This document shows, piece after piece, positions 763-8,656 of a stretch of 29,348 nt of DNA. Location of the stretch: positions 1-29,348 of the IMG/VR virus record IMGVR_UViG_3300032224_001800. One strand, written 5' to 3'. Position 1 is the stretch's first letter. Each line of letters starts with the position of its first letter. The notes under the pieces were generated by a model. The model saw only the letters and a list, made by a program, of their open reading frames with translations. It made no database searches and had not been told where the DNA came from. Made by a program: the position numbers and the translations under genes. This stretch comes from a virus.

Positions 763-1225
763 GTTGCTCCTTTTTGCCGCGTTCTACCGCTGTTAGTGGC
801 CGCCAGTGTCCGCTTGAATCCTGGGCAGTCAGAATATTGTCGATCGTGGCATCTCTCGCCAACCACCCCTCGCACACCTCTCCGATGGGCGTGCCACCAC
901 GGCAGGAGGGGCACTTGAGGGCGGCCTCAATCACCCGTCCTTTCCGCCAGATTGCCACCTCCACCCAGCCAGAAACGCAAGCGGGACACGCACTCGCCGT
1001 CGGGCTGCCCGAGGTGCGGAGGAGATCGAGGAGCCCTTGGAGGGCGTAGGAGCCTGGGCCAGTGATGAATCGGGTCACCGCCAACTCAAGACGATCATCC
1101 GAGGCGGCACTGATGGGGGCATGACGCGCCCACTCATCGGCCTCTCGGTCGATCCATGCTTGCCCCTTGCGCCACCGATGGGCGATGCGATCAAGGGCGG
1201 CGAGGATGGCGATTTTAGTGGCCAC
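752..1225 (-). CDS. Zinc-ribbon protein of the replication operon (157 aa)
   Basis: The C-terminal half has two Cys pairs, CPAC and CPSC, about 25 residues apart around a short beta-like segment (VEVAIWRKGRV), which is a typical zinc ribbon. The N-terminal half is helical and basic (AALDRIAHRWRKGQAW). I chose the GTG at 1225 because it lies in an 11-bp overlap with the preceding gene's stop and has GAGG six bases upstream; the frame stays open further upstream but only inside the preceding gene. Position directly after the helicase-loader-like gene suggests a replication accessory role. No named family is recognised. Confidence 0.6.
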   Translation of the reverse strand: MATKIAILAALDRIAHRWRKGQAWIDREADEWARHAPISAASDDRLELAVTRFITGPGSYALQGLLDLLRTSGSPTASACPACVSGWVEVAIWRKGRVIEAALKCPSCRGGTPIGEVCEGWLARDATIDNILTAQDSSGHWRPLTAVERGKKEQHEE

Positions 1226-1778
1226 GCTTGGCCTCAAGGCGTTTCCGACTTTCAGCCATGAAGTCGACGATCTGGCCCGCCTGCTTGGCTTCGGCCTGGC
1301 GGGACCAAGCGGCAGCGAACCGGCGGCCCATCGAAGCCCGTTCGGCGTCGTGGGTTGCGTTGCAGATCGCCAGCCACCCGCCCGCAGATTCAACACCGTC
1401 TTTCAGGCGTGCCAACGGAAGCTGAAGGCGTTCTGAGAGCAGCTTGGCCCAGTCCTTCTCGTTCCGCCCGATAGAGCCCGCTTGGCGGAGGACTGAGGAC
1501 CAAATATCGCGGCCCGTCAGGGCGTTGTCAGCGGCCAAGGACAACGCTGCTTTTTTGAGGGAGGGGCAATGCCCCAAAACATCGGCAGGGGCAGGCCAGA
1601 AGCGCCCCACCCGAGCGTAAGCCGTGCCAGCCGCCCCCAATTCCTGATCCGAGATATCGGAGCAGAGCAGATCCCAATCCCCAATCAGATCGGCAAAATC
1701 CGACTCAGCCGGAGGATTACCCAGCCGGATACGGGCGAAAAAAGCGAACAGGCTAATAATTGCTTGACGACTGGCCAT
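1215..1778 (-). CDS. Probable helicase loader-like protein (187 aa)
   Basis: The N-terminal 70-80 residues show the pattern of phage helicase loader/inhibitor proteins of the SPP1 G39P type. A helical start (ISLFAFFARI) is followed by an acidic segment with W and D (LIGDWDLLCSDI), then an aromatic-Pro motif RFWPAPADV where that family usually has a PPTPADI-like sequence. The rest is helical with an Ala/Arg-rich end. The ATG at 1778 has an AGGAGGT Shine-Dalgarno five bases upstream. The gene overlaps the end of the iteron-bearing initiator gene by 26 bp, an O-P-like arrangement in which the loader would bring the host replicative helicase to the initiator. The family call rests on motif memory and context, not an alignment. 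Confidence 0.5.
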   Translation of the reverse strand: MASRQAIISLFAFFARIRLGNPPAESDFADLIGDWDLLCSDISDQELGAAGTAYARVGRFWPAPADVLGHCPSLKKAALSLAADNALTGRDIWSSVLRQAGSIGRNEKDWAKLLSERLQLPLARLKDGVESAGGWLAICNATHDAERASMGRRFAAAWSRQAEAKQAGQIVDFMAESRKRLEAKRGH

Positions 1779-2727
1779 CAGAGACCTCCTCAGCGGCAAG
1801 CCGCTGTAATTCAGACATGATACCGTCCTTTTTTGATGCCTTGACGACAACCTGAGCAGGCAAAACCCGTCCATCGGCATCCAACACCGTCCCAGCCCCG
1901 CTCGGAGGCATCGCAGAAGGCCCCGTCCGCCGTTCCTTCGGTGGCACCCATCCCCCCGACCGGAAGGCTTTTACGGTGGCTACCTTCCGATTAATCCCCA
2001 CGATACGCCCCAAGTCCCATTCGTCCAAGGTGGCGGCATCGGTCAAGGTTAGGACCGATGCCAGCCGAAAGGCATTGATAACGGCGCTTGCCGCCCCCAG
2101 ATTCATCCCTGCATTGACCAGGAGGGGCAGCAAGGGCGACTCTTGGGTCTCCTCGGTCTTGGGTGGGGGCGAAATGGACGGCCCGAATTTGACCTCGGAG
2201 ACGCCCTGCTCAGGGGCGGGCTTGCGGCCAATAGACATCCGGCCAGGGTCAGCCGGAGCATGCGCTTTTGGTGGGTTGAGTGGGGGTGGCTCCTCCCCTC
2301 CCCTCTCAATCTTAATCTCTTCTTCTCTCTTAAAAGGATCGCGCGCGCATGAGGCGGTCCGTTTCCGGTCCGATGCTCGGTCCGTTTCCGGTCCGACATC
2401 CACTTTTTTAGCAGGTACATCCTTATTCTCATTGGTCCGATGCTCGGTCCGTTTCCGGTCCGTCGGGCGGTCCGCCACTCGGTCCGACCATGACTTAGGC
2501 ATAGATGCCCCCGCCTCAGCAGCCCAAACCGCCACTTTTGGCATAAACGCCAGTACTCGTCCCTTGCCCCATGCGGTCGCTTTTTGAAAAGCGCATGCGG
2601 AAACGTCCTCTCCCTGATGCCACCGGCCAAGAAGATCCACCCATGCCTCAGCATCGGTCGCAACGTGATCACCGGTGAGGCGTCCGCCGATCCACTGAGG
2701 CACCCGATACCATGCAGCCTCATTCAC
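1753..2727 (-). CDS. Replication initiator-like protein carrying internal iterons (324 aa)
   Basis: The organisation matches phage O-type initiators. Residues 1-80 are a Trp-rich helical domain with a winged-helix look (KATAWGKGRVLAFMPKVAVW). Residues about 81-124 are a low-complexity basic stretch of repeated DRKRT/EHRT units encoded by the iteron array at 2355-2486. A Pro-rich linker follows (residues 140-200), then a C-terminal helical domain near residues 210-270 (LDEWDLGRIVGINRK). The GTG at 2727 overlaps the stop of the upstream gene as GTGA, so translation is probably coupled. The protein would bind its own iterons to open the origin, and the next gene would load helicase. No catalytic motif is visible. 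The initiator role is inferred from iterons, domain layout and the neighbouring loader. Confidence 0.6.
   Translation of the reverse strand: MNEAAWYRVPQWIGGRLTGDHVATDAEAWVDLLGRWHQGEDVSACAFQKATAWGKGRVLAFMPKVAVWAAEAGASMPKSWSDRVADRPTDRKRTEHRTNENKDVPAKKVDVGPETDRASDRKRTASCARDPFKREEEIKIERGGEEPPPLNPPKAHAPADPGRMSIGRKPAPEQGVSEVKFGPSISPPPKTEETQESPLLPLLVNAGMNLGAASAVINAFRLASVLTLTDAATLDEWDLGRIVGINRKVATVKAFRSGGWVPPKERRTGPSAMPPSGAGTVLDADGRVLPAQVVVKASKKDGIMSELQRLAAEEVSDGQSSSNY
2303..2337. other. AT-/pyrimidine-rich segment beside the iterons, candidate unwinding element
   Basis: This stretch inside the initiator gene is much poorer in G than its surroundings (CTCAATCTTAATCTCTTC and the following bases up to TTAAAA). 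It lies about 20 bp from the iteron array. In lambda the analogous A/T-rich tract beside the O-gene iterons is where the duplex opens. The role here is inferred from position and composition. Confidence 0.35.
2355..2486. repeat. Iteron array, candidate phage replication origin
   Basis: CGGTCCG occurs at 2355, 2366, 2378, 2389, 2445, 2456, 2468 and 2480, and TGGTCCG at 2433. This makes two clusters (four and five cores) with spacings of 11-12 bp, about one helical turn. A 29-bp segment at 2367-2395 recurs exactly at 2434-2462. The displacement of 67 bp is not a multiple of three, so the two copies are translated in different frames (GPETDRASD versus DRKRTEHRT). The similarity is therefore kept at DNA level, not protein level. 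A lambda-type origin within the initiator gene is the simplest reading. Confidence 0.65.
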
Positions 2728-2912: not shown

Positions 2913-2939
2913 CTTATAGATGGTATACCGACCTGTCAA
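2913..2939 (-). promoter_or_regulatory. Candidate promoter of the leftward replication operon
   Basis: Read leftward there is a perfect TTGACA (2939-2934), a 15-bp spacer and TATAAG (2918-2913). A perfect palindrome GGTATACC (2922-2929) sits between the two boxes, a good place for a repressor. The spacer is slightly short. The TATAAG overlaps the AGAGG ribosome site of the first gene, so a transcript from here would be nearly leaderless. Confidence 0.45.
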
Positions 2940-3055
2940 CCCAATATCTCAGGTGAACGGTTCTACGACCCAAAAACAAAAAAGCACCGGTCACCCGATG
3001 CCCTTTGGCTCTGCAACACTGACAATCCTCAATACCCCATCCATACCTCAAATTA

Positions 3056-3096
3056 GTGATTGATTTTGAATGTCTGCAACATGCAGACTCAATCAC
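3056..3096. promoter_or_regulatory. Nested double palindrome in an intergenic region
   Basis: An outer perfect inverted repeat GTGATTGA (3056-3063) / TCAATCAC (3089-3096) encloses an inner one, GTCTGCA (3072-3078) / TGCAGAC (3082-3088) around ACA. It lies in the gap between the two leftward operons (2904-3135), which has no supported gene. It could be a composite operator or a processed RNA structure. There is no T-tract, so it is not an ordinary terminator. Confidence 0.45.
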
Positions 3097-3103
3097 CCTA
3101 ACC

Positions 3104-3125
3104 GCCTGACACCCAATCGTCAGGC
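3104..3125. repeat. Intergenic hairpin just past the zinc-motif gene
   Basis: GCCTGAC (3104-3110) and GTCAGGC (3119-3125) form a 7-bp stem with an 8-base loop, 11 bp beyond the stop of the leftward operon. No run of T follows on the minus strand, so intrinsic termination is unlikely. It may protect the 3' end or work with a factor. Confidence 0.35.
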
Positions 3126-3135
3126 ATAGATCACA

Positions 3136-3492
3136 TCAAAAGATCCTCCCCACGTCGATAGCCGCATCAGTCGCCCCATCAGCCCGCCATTGACCCTCAG
3201 GACCGTACAGCGTCCAGAGCCGCCGCCCTGGCAAGGGCTTAGCCGGTCTCTCCAGTCGCCCCAGGAAGCGACCACCCCGCCGAAACAGAGTGCAGACCGC
3301 AGGCTCGACGAGACCGAGCCCGCTAATCTCAACATCCGGAGGCACCCGCAACCGCTCCCGAGTCGCCCGAACGGCATGCCGACAGGGACGGCCAGGCGCA
3401 GCACCACAAACCTCACATGGAATCCATGGTCCCTCAGAGGGAGTGACGTGAACGATCCCATACTCCCCCCACTCAGGGACCGGAGAACTCAT
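3136..3492 (-). CDS. Zinc-motif protein of unknown function (118 aa)
   Basis: Residues 26-39 carry PCEVCGAAPGRPCRH, close to the Cx2CG-x-x-PG-x-x-C pattern of small zinc-binding domains common in phage and bacterial hypothetical proteins. The remainder is Arg- and Gly-rich (FRRGGRFLGRLERPAKPLPGRRLW). The start ATG at 3492 overlaps the exonuclease stop as ATGA, so it belongs to the same operon. Metal binding is inferred from the motif. Nucleic-acid binding is plausible from the basic composition. No further function can be assigned. Confidence 0.6.
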   Translation of the reverse strand: MSSPVPEWGEYGIVHVTPSEGPWIPCEVCGAAPGRPCRHAVRATRERLRVPPDVEISGLGLVEPAVCTLFRRGGRFLGRLERPAKPLPGRRLWTLYGPEGQWRADGATDAAIDVGRIF

Positions 3493-4067
3493 CGGACCCG
3501 CCGCCGCTGAATTTCCACCATGATTTTTGCCGCCGTTTTGGCATCAGCAAGAGCCCGATGTGCAGGCGATTCCATCGGCACCCCGTAAAATTCGGCAGCC
3601 TCACTCAATTTCGGGAATTTGTACTGGCCATTCGAGAACCGAGGCAACGCACCTGCCGCCCCCATCTCAGCATGAGCCTTGCGCATGATGCAGCCGCAAA
3701 AAGGCACCGGTTCAAGGTTCATCCTTAACATCATCTCAACATCAAACCCGAGATTGAAGCTGGTTGAAAACACCTTATCCCCAGCCGGCCCGAGCGCCAG
3801 CATCCATCCCTCAGCCCGTCCTTTTGCCTCCCTGGACTCCAGGCCCTCAGCCCTCAGCATCTCTGGAGTCAGGCCAGAGATGGAGAGCGCCATCGATGCC
3901 CGCTCATCCAAAACATCGGGATAAATCAGGCACTCAAACTGATCGATAATCTCCCCAGAGGTATCGACCAGGACCGCCCCCAGGTCCACCACAGCGGCCC
4001 AGGAGTCCCGAGGGAGGCCAGTGGTCTCAGTGTCCCAAACGATAATCGGCGATGAAAACAACATCAA
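3489..4067 (-). CDS. DnaQ-like DEDDh 3'-5' exonuclease (192 aa)
   Basis: All three exonuclease motifs are present. Exo I is WDTETTGL with D12 and E14, Exo II is NLGFD with D109, and Exo III-epsilon is HRALAD with H170 and D175. These are the four metal-binding acidic residues plus the general-base His of the DEDDh group (DnaQ epsilon, RNase T). The length suits a stand-alone domain. It removes nucleotides from DNA or RNA 3' ends; in a phage it may proofread, process recombination ends or degrade RNA. It overlaps rusA by ATGA on one side and the zinc-motif gene on the other. The fold is confident; the substrate is unknown. Confidence 0.88.
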   Translation of the reverse strand: MMLFSSPIIVWDTETTGLPRDSWAAVVDLGAVLVDTSGEIIDQFECLIYPDVLDERASMALSISGLTPEMLRAEGLESREAKGRAEGWMLALGPAGDKVFSTSFNLGFDVEMMLRMNLEPVPFCGCIMRKAHAEMGAAGALPRFSNGQYKFPKLSEAAEFYGVPMESPAHRALADAKTAAKIMVEIQRRRVR

Positions 4068-4492
4068 ACCACCTCCTCAACAGAAATTAAAACAGACGGC
4101 AACTCCCCCACCGAGCCATACCATCGGGTGACAGAGCCGATCTGTATATGGCAGTCATCCGACACGATCCCGCCACCCTGGAGAGCGTCGCAGACCGCCT
4201 TGAGCACGTTGTCAGCATCGGGCTTAGACCACCGCTTACAACGTCCCCCGCCCCAATCCTCTTTTGAGACCGAGGCAGGCCGAGAAAGAGGACGATCAAA
4301 AATGGCCACGACGGACACCCGGATAGGCCCCTTCCCCATCGGGAAGCCAGCCCGGATCGCCTGATTAGCCAGGATGAGCGCCGCCTTCCGTTTCCAGGCC
4401 ATGTAAGCCTCAGGCATATGGACTCCACGACCCGCAGCCCTCGGTCGTGGGCAGGGGACAGGATCGCCAGGGATGACCAGATCCGCCCTCAT
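4064..4492 (-). CDS. rusA: RusA-family Holliday junction resolvase (142 aa)
   Basis: RusA cuts four-way DNA junctions symmetrically. The N-terminus VIPGDPVPCPRPRA matches the family's opening strand and PxPRPR-type segment. The catalytic region KPDADNVLKAVCDALQ (K90-Q105) holds the paired Asp D92 and D94, with N95 and the following Lys, and GGGIVSDDCHI supplies the third acidic position (D112/D113). The 142-aa length is typical (about 120-150). Overlapping ATGA junctions with both neighbours place it in the leftward recombination/repair operon. It probably resolves recombination intermediates made by the YqaJ-RecT pair encoded divergently. Confidence 0.9.
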   Translation of the reverse strand: MRADLVIPGDPVPCPRPRAAGRGVHMPEAYMAWKRKAALILANQAIRAGFPMGKGPIRVSVVAIFDRPLSRPASVSKEDWGGGRCKRWSKPDADNVLKAVCDALQGGGIVSDDCHIQIGSVTRWYGSVGELPSVLISVEEVV

Positions 4493-5975: not shown

Positions 5976-6418
5976 GCGGCTTTTTAGGGCATGATATGCC
6001 AAAGAACGCCCCCAATTGCCTCCTTTGCATGACCCCCCGCGCCCATGCCTCAGGCGAATGCAGCGCCCGCCTGAGGGCAGCACTCAACCAAACTGATGAG
6101 CAATTGGCCCTCCTCAAGAGCGATATGCTGGCAGCCCCAGAAGGGGCCTGTACCTGCATCCACACCCACGCCCCCACCTGCCCAGCCGCCCCCCGCCCGG
6201 TTGACCTTGCCGCCCCTTGGGTGGGGATGCGGATCGCGGTCCAGCACGAAGAGGGGGACATGGATGGAGCAGTCACCGAAGCATCCCCCAAATGGGTTGG
6301 ATGGCGCCTGGATGGCGCACATAGCGACGCCCGCCTTGACAGAGCAACCTGGGATCAATGGGTCCAAAAGGGATGGATCAAAGCCTCCCTCCAATGGACT
6401 TTTGGAGGGAAGCCATGA
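5972..6418 (+). CDS. Protein with related N-terminal Cys/His motif (148 aa)
   Basis: Residues 16-38 carry CLLCMTPRAHASGECSARL, matching the CLxC-x(n)-H-x3-[DE]C-[ST]A layout of the preceding protein. Another Cys cluster follows (ACTCIHTHAPTC). The C-terminal half is Trp-rich (PKWVGWRLDG, ATWDQWVQKGW) and may be a small beta domain. The ATG at 5972 overlaps the previous stop as ATGA. No known family is recognised. The dense Cys/His content suggests metal-dependent folding. Confidence 0.65.
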   Translation: MSGFLGHDMPKNAPNCLLCMTPRAHASGECSARLRAALNQTDEQLALLKSDMLAAPEGACTCIHTHAPTCPAAPRPVDLAAPWVGMRIAVQHEEGDMDGAVTEASPKWVGWRLDGAHSDARLDRATWDQWVQKGWIKASLQWTFGGKP

Positions 6419-7428
6419 TCCCCAAAATCTACCCCACCCGCGAGGCATGGCTTGCCAGCCGCGATCCCCTGAGCATCGGAGCATCGGAGGCCGCAATGGC
6501 CCTCGGAGTCTCCCCCTATGGGGGCCCCTGGGATCTCTATGAGCGCAAACATGGAGCCATCCAACCCGATAGCCCCCAGATGGCAAGGGGGAGGAAGTGG
6601 GAGGCCAGGGTGCTGGAGGACTACGCAGAGGCCGCCGAAGTCCAGATCGTAGACCCGGCGATCCACTTTTCCGGGAAGCCTGGAATTGTCACGATGGCAC
6701 ACTCAGACTTCCCCTGGCTCAGATGCTCCCCGGACTCCCTCAGCCGCTCTAATGGGGTTTTGGGTGGGGTGGAGGCCAAAACCGCCACCGACGCCGGAGC
6801 GTGGACCCCTGAGAAGGGGATGGTTTTGGATCGATGGACCGATGACGCCGCCACCATGATCCCCGCTCACTATGCAGTCCAGGTCTATGTCAGCCTGGAA
6901 ATCTCAGGGCTGCCTTATTGGGATTTATGCGCCCTTGTCCCCGCCGCTGGGTGGCTGGAAGTGCGGTGGGTCCGAGTGATGCGGGACACCGCGACCCAGG
7001 GGCAGATCTTGGAAGCCTTGGCCGATTGGCAAGGCCGACACCTGGCGCACGGCGAGCCGCCCCCCATCGATGGGTCGGGCGCATGCAATCGGCACCTCAG
7101 CGCCTCTTTCCAGAAGCGCCCCGCCCGCGAGGCCACCGGAGACGAGTTGGCCAGCCTCACGGAGTACGCAGCCCTTAAGGCCCAAATCAAAAGCCTTGAG
7201 GACCGCTCGGACCTCCTCAAGAACCAACTGATCCAGATCTCTAATGGGGCCCGCCTTCTCGCCAATTCAGGGAAAGGGGCTCCCTACGGTCAACCACAAT
7301 TCAACCAAGGAAAAACAGGAATCGACACCGAAAAGCTCAAAGCAGAATTCCCCGAAGCATGGGCCGCCTGTCAAAAGCAGGGAGCCCCCTTTACAACATT
7401 CAATCTGTACAAATTCAGCAAGGAATAA
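6415..7428 (+). CDS. YqaJ-family viral recombination exonuclease (337 aa)
   Basis: This is the 5'-3' exonuclease partner of RecT, related to lambda exonuclease (PD-(D/E)xK fold). Visible motifs in order are IGASEAAMALGVSPYGGPWD (residues 21-40, the hallmark substrate loop), RGRKWEARVLE (59-69), SPDS (105-108, catalytic Asp), GGVEAKTA (117-124, the ExK catalytic pair) and YAVQVYVSL (153-161, the Q motif). The C-terminus (about 235-337) is a coiled-coil segment (YAALKAQIKSLEDRSDLL) and a conserved-looking end. The ATG at 6415 overlaps the previous stop. It chews 5' strands of double-stranded ends so that RecT can anneal the resulting 3' tails. Confidence 0.9.
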   Translation: MIPKIYPTREAWLASRDPLSIGASEAAMALGVSPYGGPWDLYERKHGAIQPDSPQMARGRKWEARVLEDYAEAAEVQIVDPAIHFSGKPGIVTMAHSDFPWLRCSPDSLSRSNGVLGGVEAKTATDAGAWTPEKGMVLDRWTDDAATMIPAHYAVQVYVSLEISGLPYWDLCALVPAAGWLEVRWVRVMRDTATQGQILEALADWQGRHLAHGEPPPIDGSGACNRHLSASFQKRPAREATGDELASLTEYAALKAQIKSLEDRSDLLKNQLIQISNGARLLANSGKGAPYGQPQFNQGKTGIDTEKLKAEFPEAWAACQKQGAPFTTFNLYKFSKE

Positions 7429-7430
7429 CC

Positions 7431-8459
7431 ATGACCACCGAAATCGCCAAACCCTCCTTTGACCGCCAGCTCTCAACCTACGTCAAGGGCTTGGGCTCTC
7501 TGGTCCCTGAATCCGTCCGAAATCGCCTCCTCCGCCTCGTCACGGTCGAAGCCGCTCTCAATCCCAAAATCCAAGAATGCACCCAGGCGTCCGTGATGCG
7601 GGCGGTGTACCTCTCCGCCCAATTGCAGCTTGAGCCGGGGGCGGTCAAAGGCGAATTGTACTTTATCCCTCGCCTTATCACTGTGAAGCGTGAGAATGGC
7701 TTTGATAAAGAAATGCAGCTCCAAACCCAAATTGGGTATAAGGGCTATCTGACCCTTGCCCGCCGTTCCGGCCAAATCAGTATGATCGATGCCCATGCAG
7801 TTTTTGAGGGTGACGCCTACGAGATTGCTCTCGGCACCGAACCCAAATTGATCCACGTCCCGCAGAAGGGCGTAGACCGCACCAAAAGCGCCAATATCAT
7901 TGGGGCTTATTGTATTGTGAAGCTCAAAGATGGTAGCACTTATTTTGAGTGGCTTTGGAAAGACGAGATCGACGCCCGCCGCGCCCGCTCAGAAAACCGC
8001 AGCGACAAGGGCCCTTGGTCAACCGACTATGCAGCGATGGCACGGAAAACGGCGATCCGTGCCTTATTCACAGGCGGACGCGTCCCGATGGCGGACCAAA
8101 TTGGACTGGCCACCCTTTTAGACGAGGAAGCCACCCCAGAACAATCGCGGGCAGCCCTGGCAACGATGGCTGAGGAGATGCGCCAAAACGGCCTGGACGC
8201 GACCATTATTGAATCCGTCCCCGAAGCTGCCCAGGAAGCCCCCGCCCCACCCAAAAACGCCCTCGGCATCTCCCTCACCGAGATCCCCGCGATTGAAGCC
8301 GTCCGGGAGGCCGAAAAGGCCCTCCCCGAAGCGGAGATCAAAGCGATTCGTCGTGCCCGCAAGCTCAGCGAGTCCGACGACATCTCCAAAATCGCCCCTG
8401 GATTTTGGCCCGCATACCTGTTTGAGCTCAAAAAGGCCCACACCGAGCTCAACAAATGA
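7431..8459 (+). CDS. recT: RecT-family single-strand annealing protein (342 aa)
   Basis: RecT coats single-stranded DNA and anneals homologous strands. The core (residues about 10-230) shows the family's sequence run: LVTVEAALNPKIQECTQASV, LSAQLQLEPGAVKGELYFIP, QTQIGYKGYLTLARRSGQI and WSTDYAAMARKTAIRALF. The C-terminal third is Pro/Glu-rich and variable, with a final helical segment. The start lies two bases after the YqaJ stop, so the pair is co-translated. The next tiny gene overlaps its stop by ATGA. The exonuclease-annealase order is the standard one. Confidence 0.92.
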   Translation: MTTEIAKPSFDRQLSTYVKGLGSLVPESVRNRLLRLVTVEAALNPKIQECTQASVMRAVYLSAQLQLEPGAVKGELYFIPRLITVKRENGFDKEMQLQTQIGYKGYLTLARRSGQISMIDAHAVFEGDAYEIALGTEPKLIHVPQKGVDRTKSANIIGAYCIVKLKDGSTYFEWLWKDEIDARRARSENRSDKGPWSTDYAAMARKTAIRALFTGGRVPMADQIGLATLLDEEATPEQSRAALATMAEEMRQNGLDATIIESVPEAAQEAPAPPKNALGISLTEIPAIEAVREAEKALPEAEIKAIRRARKLSESDDISKIAPGFWPAYLFELKKAHTELNK

Positions 8460-8564: not shown

Positions 8565-8597
8565 AAGCCGGGTATCTTTGCGGATACCCGGCTTTTT
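8565..8597 (+). terminator. Rho-independent terminator of the recombination operon
   Basis: The 12-bp perfect stem AAGCCGGGTATC / GATACCCGGCTT with loop TTTGCG runs directly into TTTTT. The loop-proximal part is GGTATC-N6-GATACC, identical in half-sites and spacing to the operator at 5402-5419. Confidence 0.9.
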
Positions 8598-8602
8598 ATT
8601 AT

Positions 8603-8619
8603 ATCATAATCATTATGAT
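8603..8619. repeat. Perfect AT-rich palindrome after the terminator
   Basis: ATCATAAT-C-ATTATGAT has 8-bp arms around a single base. It lies between the terminator and a TTGACG element, so it may be an operator for the downstream rightward genes. Confidence 0.4.
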
Positions 8620-8627
8620 TTATTTTA

Positions 8628-8656
8628 TTGACGGGGCACGTAGGGCAGGGTAATTA
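8628..8656 (+). promoter_or_regulatory. Candidate rightward promoter
   Basis: TTGACG (8628-8633), a 17-bp spacer and TAATTA (8651-8656). The -35 box is good and the -10 box is a weak match. It would serve the genes starting at 8701 and 8951, which need their own promoter because a strong terminator lies just upstream. Confidence 0.35.

Follow-up and report, generated by a model that had tools for sequence, protein, structure and literature searches.

The oriL origin of Bacillus phage SPP1 consists of direct repeats and an AT-rich region located inside gene 38, and is bound by the replisome organizer G38P (gp38) (PMC6316719). For Staphylococcus phage 80alpha, the G38P homologue did not complement in trans, suggesting an embedded origin (PMC5499656), and in phage lambda iterons and an AT-rich tract lie in the middle of gene O, followed by a helicase-loading gene (PMC7466680). 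The window studied here (i.e., the whole analysed stretch of 29,348 nucleotides, itself a fragment, from IMG/VR virus record IMGVR_UViG_3300032224_001800) carries a repeat array within a gene on its minus strand (1753–2727; GTG start, 324 aa), the product of which is a putative initiator (replisome organizer) as judged from the position of the array and from a structure model.

Nine CGGACC cores are situated on the strand of this gene between 2356 and 2486 (i.e., as GGTCCG on the plus strand, starting at 2356, 2367, 2379, 2390, 2434, 2446, 2457, 2469, and 2481), eight of them in the form CGGACCG and one as CGGACCA. Spaced 12, 12, 11, 12, 44, 11, 12, and 11 bp in the direction of the gene, they make up a first cluster of five cores (2434–2486, minus strand) and a second cluster of four (2356–2395, minus strand), each with 11–12 bp spacing, with a gap of 44 bp between the clusters. 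This recount, together with a stability profile, agreed with the initial annotation, which had described nine cores 11–12 bp apart in two clusters and an AT tract at 2303–2337. A 29-bp exact repeat (CGGACCGGAAACGGACCGAGCATCGGACC), also described there, was confirmed by its coordinates, its copies lying 67 bp apart and hence in different codon frames, with copy 1 (2434–2462, minus strand) being read as ...DRKRTEHRT and copy 2 (2367–2395, minus strand) as GPETDRASD. The spacers between the cores have a partially common sequence, via this 29-bp duplication.

With nine occurrences in 131 bp, GGTCCG reached the highest count of any 6-mer per 131-bp stretch in the whole window, and the initiator gene obtained a one-turn, non-codon repeat score of 25, compared to 0–5 in 28 control genes. 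Such a repeat could in principle serve the protein, i.e., as a Lys/Arg/Asp/Thr-rich flexible linker that grew by slippage and has no DNA function, given that the array codes for a low-complexity linker, which is disordered in the AlphaFold2 model, and that part of the array is made up of the recent 29-bp duplication. However, when the linker peptide was recoded with the codon usage of the other window genes, a mean of 1.05 and a maximum of six CGGACC cores were obtained versus the nine observed, with none of the 20,000 draws reaching nine, indicating that peptide constraint accounts for approximately one of the nine cores. A stricter shuffle, in which the gene's own codons were permuted, yielded more cores (mean of 2.9 and maximum of nine in 5,000 shuffles) as many of the gene's codons come from the cores. 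Moreover, the nine cores make use of all three codon frames (i.e., 1, 1, 1, 0, 0, 2, 1, 1, 0), as do those of the relatives described below.

The fitted period of the array was approximately 11.3 bp (R = 0.96), while coherence at 10.5 bp was poor (R = 0.08), so that successive cores, although separated by approximately one turn, gradually shift their position around the helix. Of the earlier description of the iterons as helically phased, the spacing of about one turn was thus retained, while phasing at 10.5 bp gave way to the 11.3 bp period.

In the direction of the gene, the last iteron is followed by a GC box (CGCGCGCGC, 2340–2348, identified from its sequence and its recurrence elsewhere), an element that the initial annotation had not described, and then by the AT-rich, purine/pyrimidine-biased tract (2303–2337, 34% GC), which is a candidate unwinding element. 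The best 35-bp stretch of this tract ranked within the 0.15% of lowest stability in the window and belonged to its third least stable region. GC skew computed over the window displayed no clear inflection at the array and gave no origin signal.

Relatives of the array were sought with a DNA pattern scan of viral contigs for CGGACC cores repeated at exactly 11 bp. In the contigs retrieved, an ORF of the same strand contained the array, approximately 70–170 codons from the start of the ORF and past a helix-turn-helix. Seven contigs (L008, L074, L075, L095, L152, L161, and L168) form one group with an array spacing of 11, 35, 44, 11, 11, and 11 bp, while L143 displays a spacing of 11, 11, 11, 44, 11, and 11 bp and L162 of 11, 11, 55, 11, and 11 bp; further array-bearing contigs are L117/L137, L051, L148, L150, L166, L169, L102, and L109. 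Altogether, at least 10 initiator groups that are dissimilar in sequence carry 11-bp CGGACC arrays just past their helix-turn-helix code, with in-phase gaps of 22, 44, or 55 bp, and taken together these ORFs read the core in every frame. The initiators of L143, L162/L165, and the L008/L075/L095/L152 group resemble that of the window in their core, their 11-bp spacing, their 44- or 55-bp gap, and a GCGCGC box followed by an AT/purine tract, although their proteins have no demonstrable homology to that of the window outside the linker. Moreover, no link between the compact L008-type initiators and the window's protein was found upon comparison.

Several of these initiator genes are followed by replication genes, i.e., a DnaB-like helicase downstream of the L162 initiator (PHROG match, E = 8.6e-49), helicases recognized by sequence inspection downstream of the initiator in L143 and L342, and a helicase-loader match downstream in L154 (E = 1.1e-4). 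In L144 (region 2923–3416), an ORF of 114 aa with a winged helix-turn-helix (wHTH) stops at 3267 and the next gene, primase/helicase-like by inspection, starts from 3417. Inside the untranslated 149 bp preceding 3417 lies the L144 array, in which four or more exact CGGACC cores follow each other at 11 bp. That this array is intact though untranslated points to selection on DNA.

The scan itself was read with caution, since the motif alone proved unspecific: a control scan with the reversed core CCAGGC returned 40 viral stretches versus 61 for CGGACC. Raw motif counts were therefore set aside, and position within a replication gene was used as evidence instead. In bacterial genomes, three CGGACC cores at 11 bp were mostly intergenic or part of a high-GC actinobacterial tandem repeat. 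The Bacteroidales MAG UBA3630 (G002) contained 336 matches to the triple CGGACC array (CGGACCATCCC-type 11-bp repeats) scattered genome-wide, several of them outside ORFs, and the corresponding loci (L216, L224, L230, L236, L246, and L249) do not by their appearance represent phage origins. Several of the control stretches (L174 and L208) harbored CCAGGC in 11-bp in-gene arrays of G38P-type initiator genes, and these arrays would by their sequence be the same kind of origin with another core. In three further loci (L163:2494–3357, L058:11316–12062, and L159:5785–6303), the array was found in the opposite orientation, its cores reading GGTCCG on the gene strand, inside wHTH replication genes. 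No description of the CGGACC core was found in the open literature searched, a search outside of which the original SPP1 origin papers fell.

The frame-independent cores, the codon test, the recurrence, and the untranslated L144 copy together support that the array is under selection at the DNA level, as had been claimed from the sequence of the window. With the same 6-bp core in unrelated initiators and the L144 array kept outside any reading frame, a linker repeat without DNA function is already contradicted and has next to no probability left; the DRKRT linker residues arise secondarily from the DNA repeat. The opposite pattern, in which homologous genes would keep these residues through other codons and lack a common DNA core, was not what emerged, as it is the DNA core that is conserved.

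The GC box recurs as well. A GCGCGC within 40 bp past the last core was found in 4 of 13 initiator groups, whereas 0.34 would be expected (P = 2e-4, or P = 0.0035 when the window is left out), suggesting that the candidate origin includes the box as an additional conserved element. The frame in which it is read differs between the window (TGC GCG CGC) and L162 (CGC GCG CGT), while a 13-mer following the box (TTAAGAGAGAAGA) is common to both. Such boxes lie 7–33 bp past the last CGGACC core in the window, L143, L162, L075, L095, L152, L161, and L168, which represent several initiator groups whose proteins are dissimilar. A similar composite, with a spacing of 12, 45, and 12 bp plus a CGCGCGCG box, was present in L342 and L397, which were left out of the GC-box evidence since they had been retrieved with CGCGCGCG in the query.

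The window's initiator matched no Pfam or PHROG family at E ≤ 1, including the lambda-O families (Phage_rep_O and the O-like PHROGs). AlphaFold2 predicted a helix-turn-helix unit at residues 21–84 with a pLDDT of about 60–83 and low values for the rest, and an N-terminal, possibly winged, helix-turn-helix domain was accordingly placed at about these residues (2476–2667, minus strand) from this model, its fold matches, and hhalign. The best fold matches of the model were wHTH DNA-binding proteins with Z values of 4–5.6, values also reached by unrelated models, while a Foldseek search of the full low-confidence model against BFVD was uninformative. When the N-terminal domain was aligned to the G38P profile (phrog_2514/phrog_186) with hhalign, a probability of 34% and a score of 25.9 were obtained, exceeding the maximum of 21.1 in 200 shuffles and of 17.8 in 80 other pieces of the window. 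The G38P family was not matched in an hmmscan of the initiator, the similarity stays below significance, and the window's domain is also shorter; homology of the window's initiator to G38P is likely but unproven. Protein searches of IMG/VR, INPHARED phages, and 337 genomes belonging to the class of L270's genome yielded no credible close relative of either the initiator or the next gene, and the top match (L439) was checked and judged to be due to chance.

A direct connection between CGGACC arrays and the SPP1 family comes from L117, the array-bearing initiator of which matches phrog_2514 (E = 4e-40) and is 54% identical to SPP1 G38P over the N-terminal domain, making it by sequence a homologue of G38P. 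Moreover, G38P-type genes picked regardless of repeats displayed one-turn, non-codon repeat scores of 6–39 in all 12 annotated phage genes, compared to 0–5 in 28 neighboring genes, and z > 4 was reached by 24 of 35 prophage genes that had been retrieved with phrog_2514 from genomes of proteobacteria and Bacteroidota, usually at codon 70–120. The cores of G38P-type genes vary and include GACCAG, CCGACA, CGGCAC, GGGCCA, and CGACGC, among others.

The window thus shares with SPP1 oriL the direct repeats and AT-rich unwinding element in the initiator gene past the N-terminal DNA-binding domain, with repeats that lie approximately one turn from each other and do not keep to the codon register. The SPP1 repeats are AACGACA/AAGACA-like, whereas the window's core is CGGACC, and SPP1 gene 38 lacks the GC box present in the window. 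Like the window, 80alpha carries its inferred origin in the initiator gene (ORF20), whose product is G38P-type, but both its host and its sequence are unrelated. The lambda origin has four long iterons of 18 bp each. It resembles the window in layout only, i.e., a central position of the iterons and AT tract within the initiator gene, while the window has nine 6–7-bp cores at 11–12 bp. The label lambda-like therefore holds for this layout but not for the protein, for which no lambda-O family was detected, nor for the length of the iterons, and SPP1 oriL is the closer model. The same comparison overturned the suggestion of a distinct iteron type, as initiator genes of the SPP1 G38P type have repeats one turn apart as a rule and oriL in gene 38 was already known; the array is of a kind already described.

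On the basis of these comparisons, we consider it very likely that the window's array is an origin that lies within the initiator gene and has the layout of SPP1 oriL. The earlier proposal of an iteron origin at this position gained support from the frame-independent cores and the codon test, from the untranslated L144 copy, and from the recurrence of the array past wHTH code in dissimilar replication genes, the scan having recovered CGGACC arrays in initiator genes of many dissimilar viral contigs. Origins of this kind should be findable from DNA alone, as out-of-frame one-turn repeats past winged-helix code, even where protein homology fails. For the present uncultured phage, whose initiator fits no named family, a candidate origin is thereby provided that can be checked experimentally.

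The hhalign alignment to the G38P profile also placed a putative recognition helix at residues 54–62 (GKGRVLAFM; 2542–2568, minus strand). In the G38P family, a K or R as second residue of this helix went together with a GGAC core in 11 of 12 genes, 6 of which had been picked by their core, and an N or I with a C/A-GAC core in 5 of 5. Among the genes not picked by core, GGAC accompanied K/R in 5 of 6 cases versus 0 of 5 for the others (Fisher P = 0.015, uncorrected for shared ancestry and counted partly on the same data from which the idea arose). The window agrees with this relation, its helix (GKGRVLAF) having K at the second position and its core being CGGACC. If the relation is true, the protein would predict the origin and the origin would predict the site of the protein, and initiator–origin specificity could be read for many phages and tested by simple binding assays.

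These data also bear on whether some other phage factor or a host factor (e.g., a partition or nucleoid protein) reads the array instead. The dyad-like CGGACCG form of eight of the nine cores would suit a dimer, but the covariation of core base and recognition-helix residue across G38P-type initiators (Fisher P = 0.015), as well as the fact that the array tracks the initiator gene, make this very improbable. A broader generalization can be put forward tentatively, and we consider it somewhat less probable than its opposite: a very widespread class of phage origins may have 6–7-bp cores every 11 bp, superimposed on the reading frame past the winged helix, with CGGACC as one recurrent core common to initiators without detectable sequence similarity, with the second residue of the helix setting the base before GAC (GGAC for K/R and C/A-GAC for N/I), and with the GCGCGC box as an undescribed extra element in one sub-group.

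By analogy with SPP1 and lambda, the phage would start theta replication from this array within its initiator gene. The CGGACC cores may be bound by the winged-helix domain at the N terminus of the 1753–2727 product, with one protomer per core, so that a nucleoprotein array with approximately one protomer per 11 bp would form over the two clusters. Such assembly would strain and melt the adjoining AT tract (2303–2337), after which the C-terminal part and the product of the following gene might recruit the replicative helicase. Plasmid iterons often control copy number as well, and the sequence evidence in itself reveals an array of binding sites, both of which would fit an operator through which the initiator represses or times its own gene, or a decoy that titrates the initiator. 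However, the position of the array 3′ of the helix-turn-helix code and beside a melting-prone tract is the layout of the SPP1 and lambda origins, and the 80alpha homologue behaves as if its gene carried an embedded origin, rendering an operator or decoy unlikely compared to an origin.

The next gene (1215–1880, minus strand, with an alternative start at 1823) overlaps the end of the initiator gene and is by its position a candidate helicase loader. Its product had no family match in profile searches and matched an ORF in similar position in L109 weakly (pairwise BLASTP, E = 0.003), so that the earlier designation as a probable helicase loader is backed by position and this weak match but not by a family assignment. 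No helicase gene was recognized within the window.

Elsewhere in the window (6358–8459 and 3489–4492), the genes of a RecE-like exonuclease/RecT pair diverge from those for RusA and a DnaQ-like exonuclease. The sole relative found for RecT is in L124 (79% identity), a 24.5-kb fragment in which no CGGACC array is present. The least stable and most AT-rich stretch of the window is located just past recT (8584–8630).
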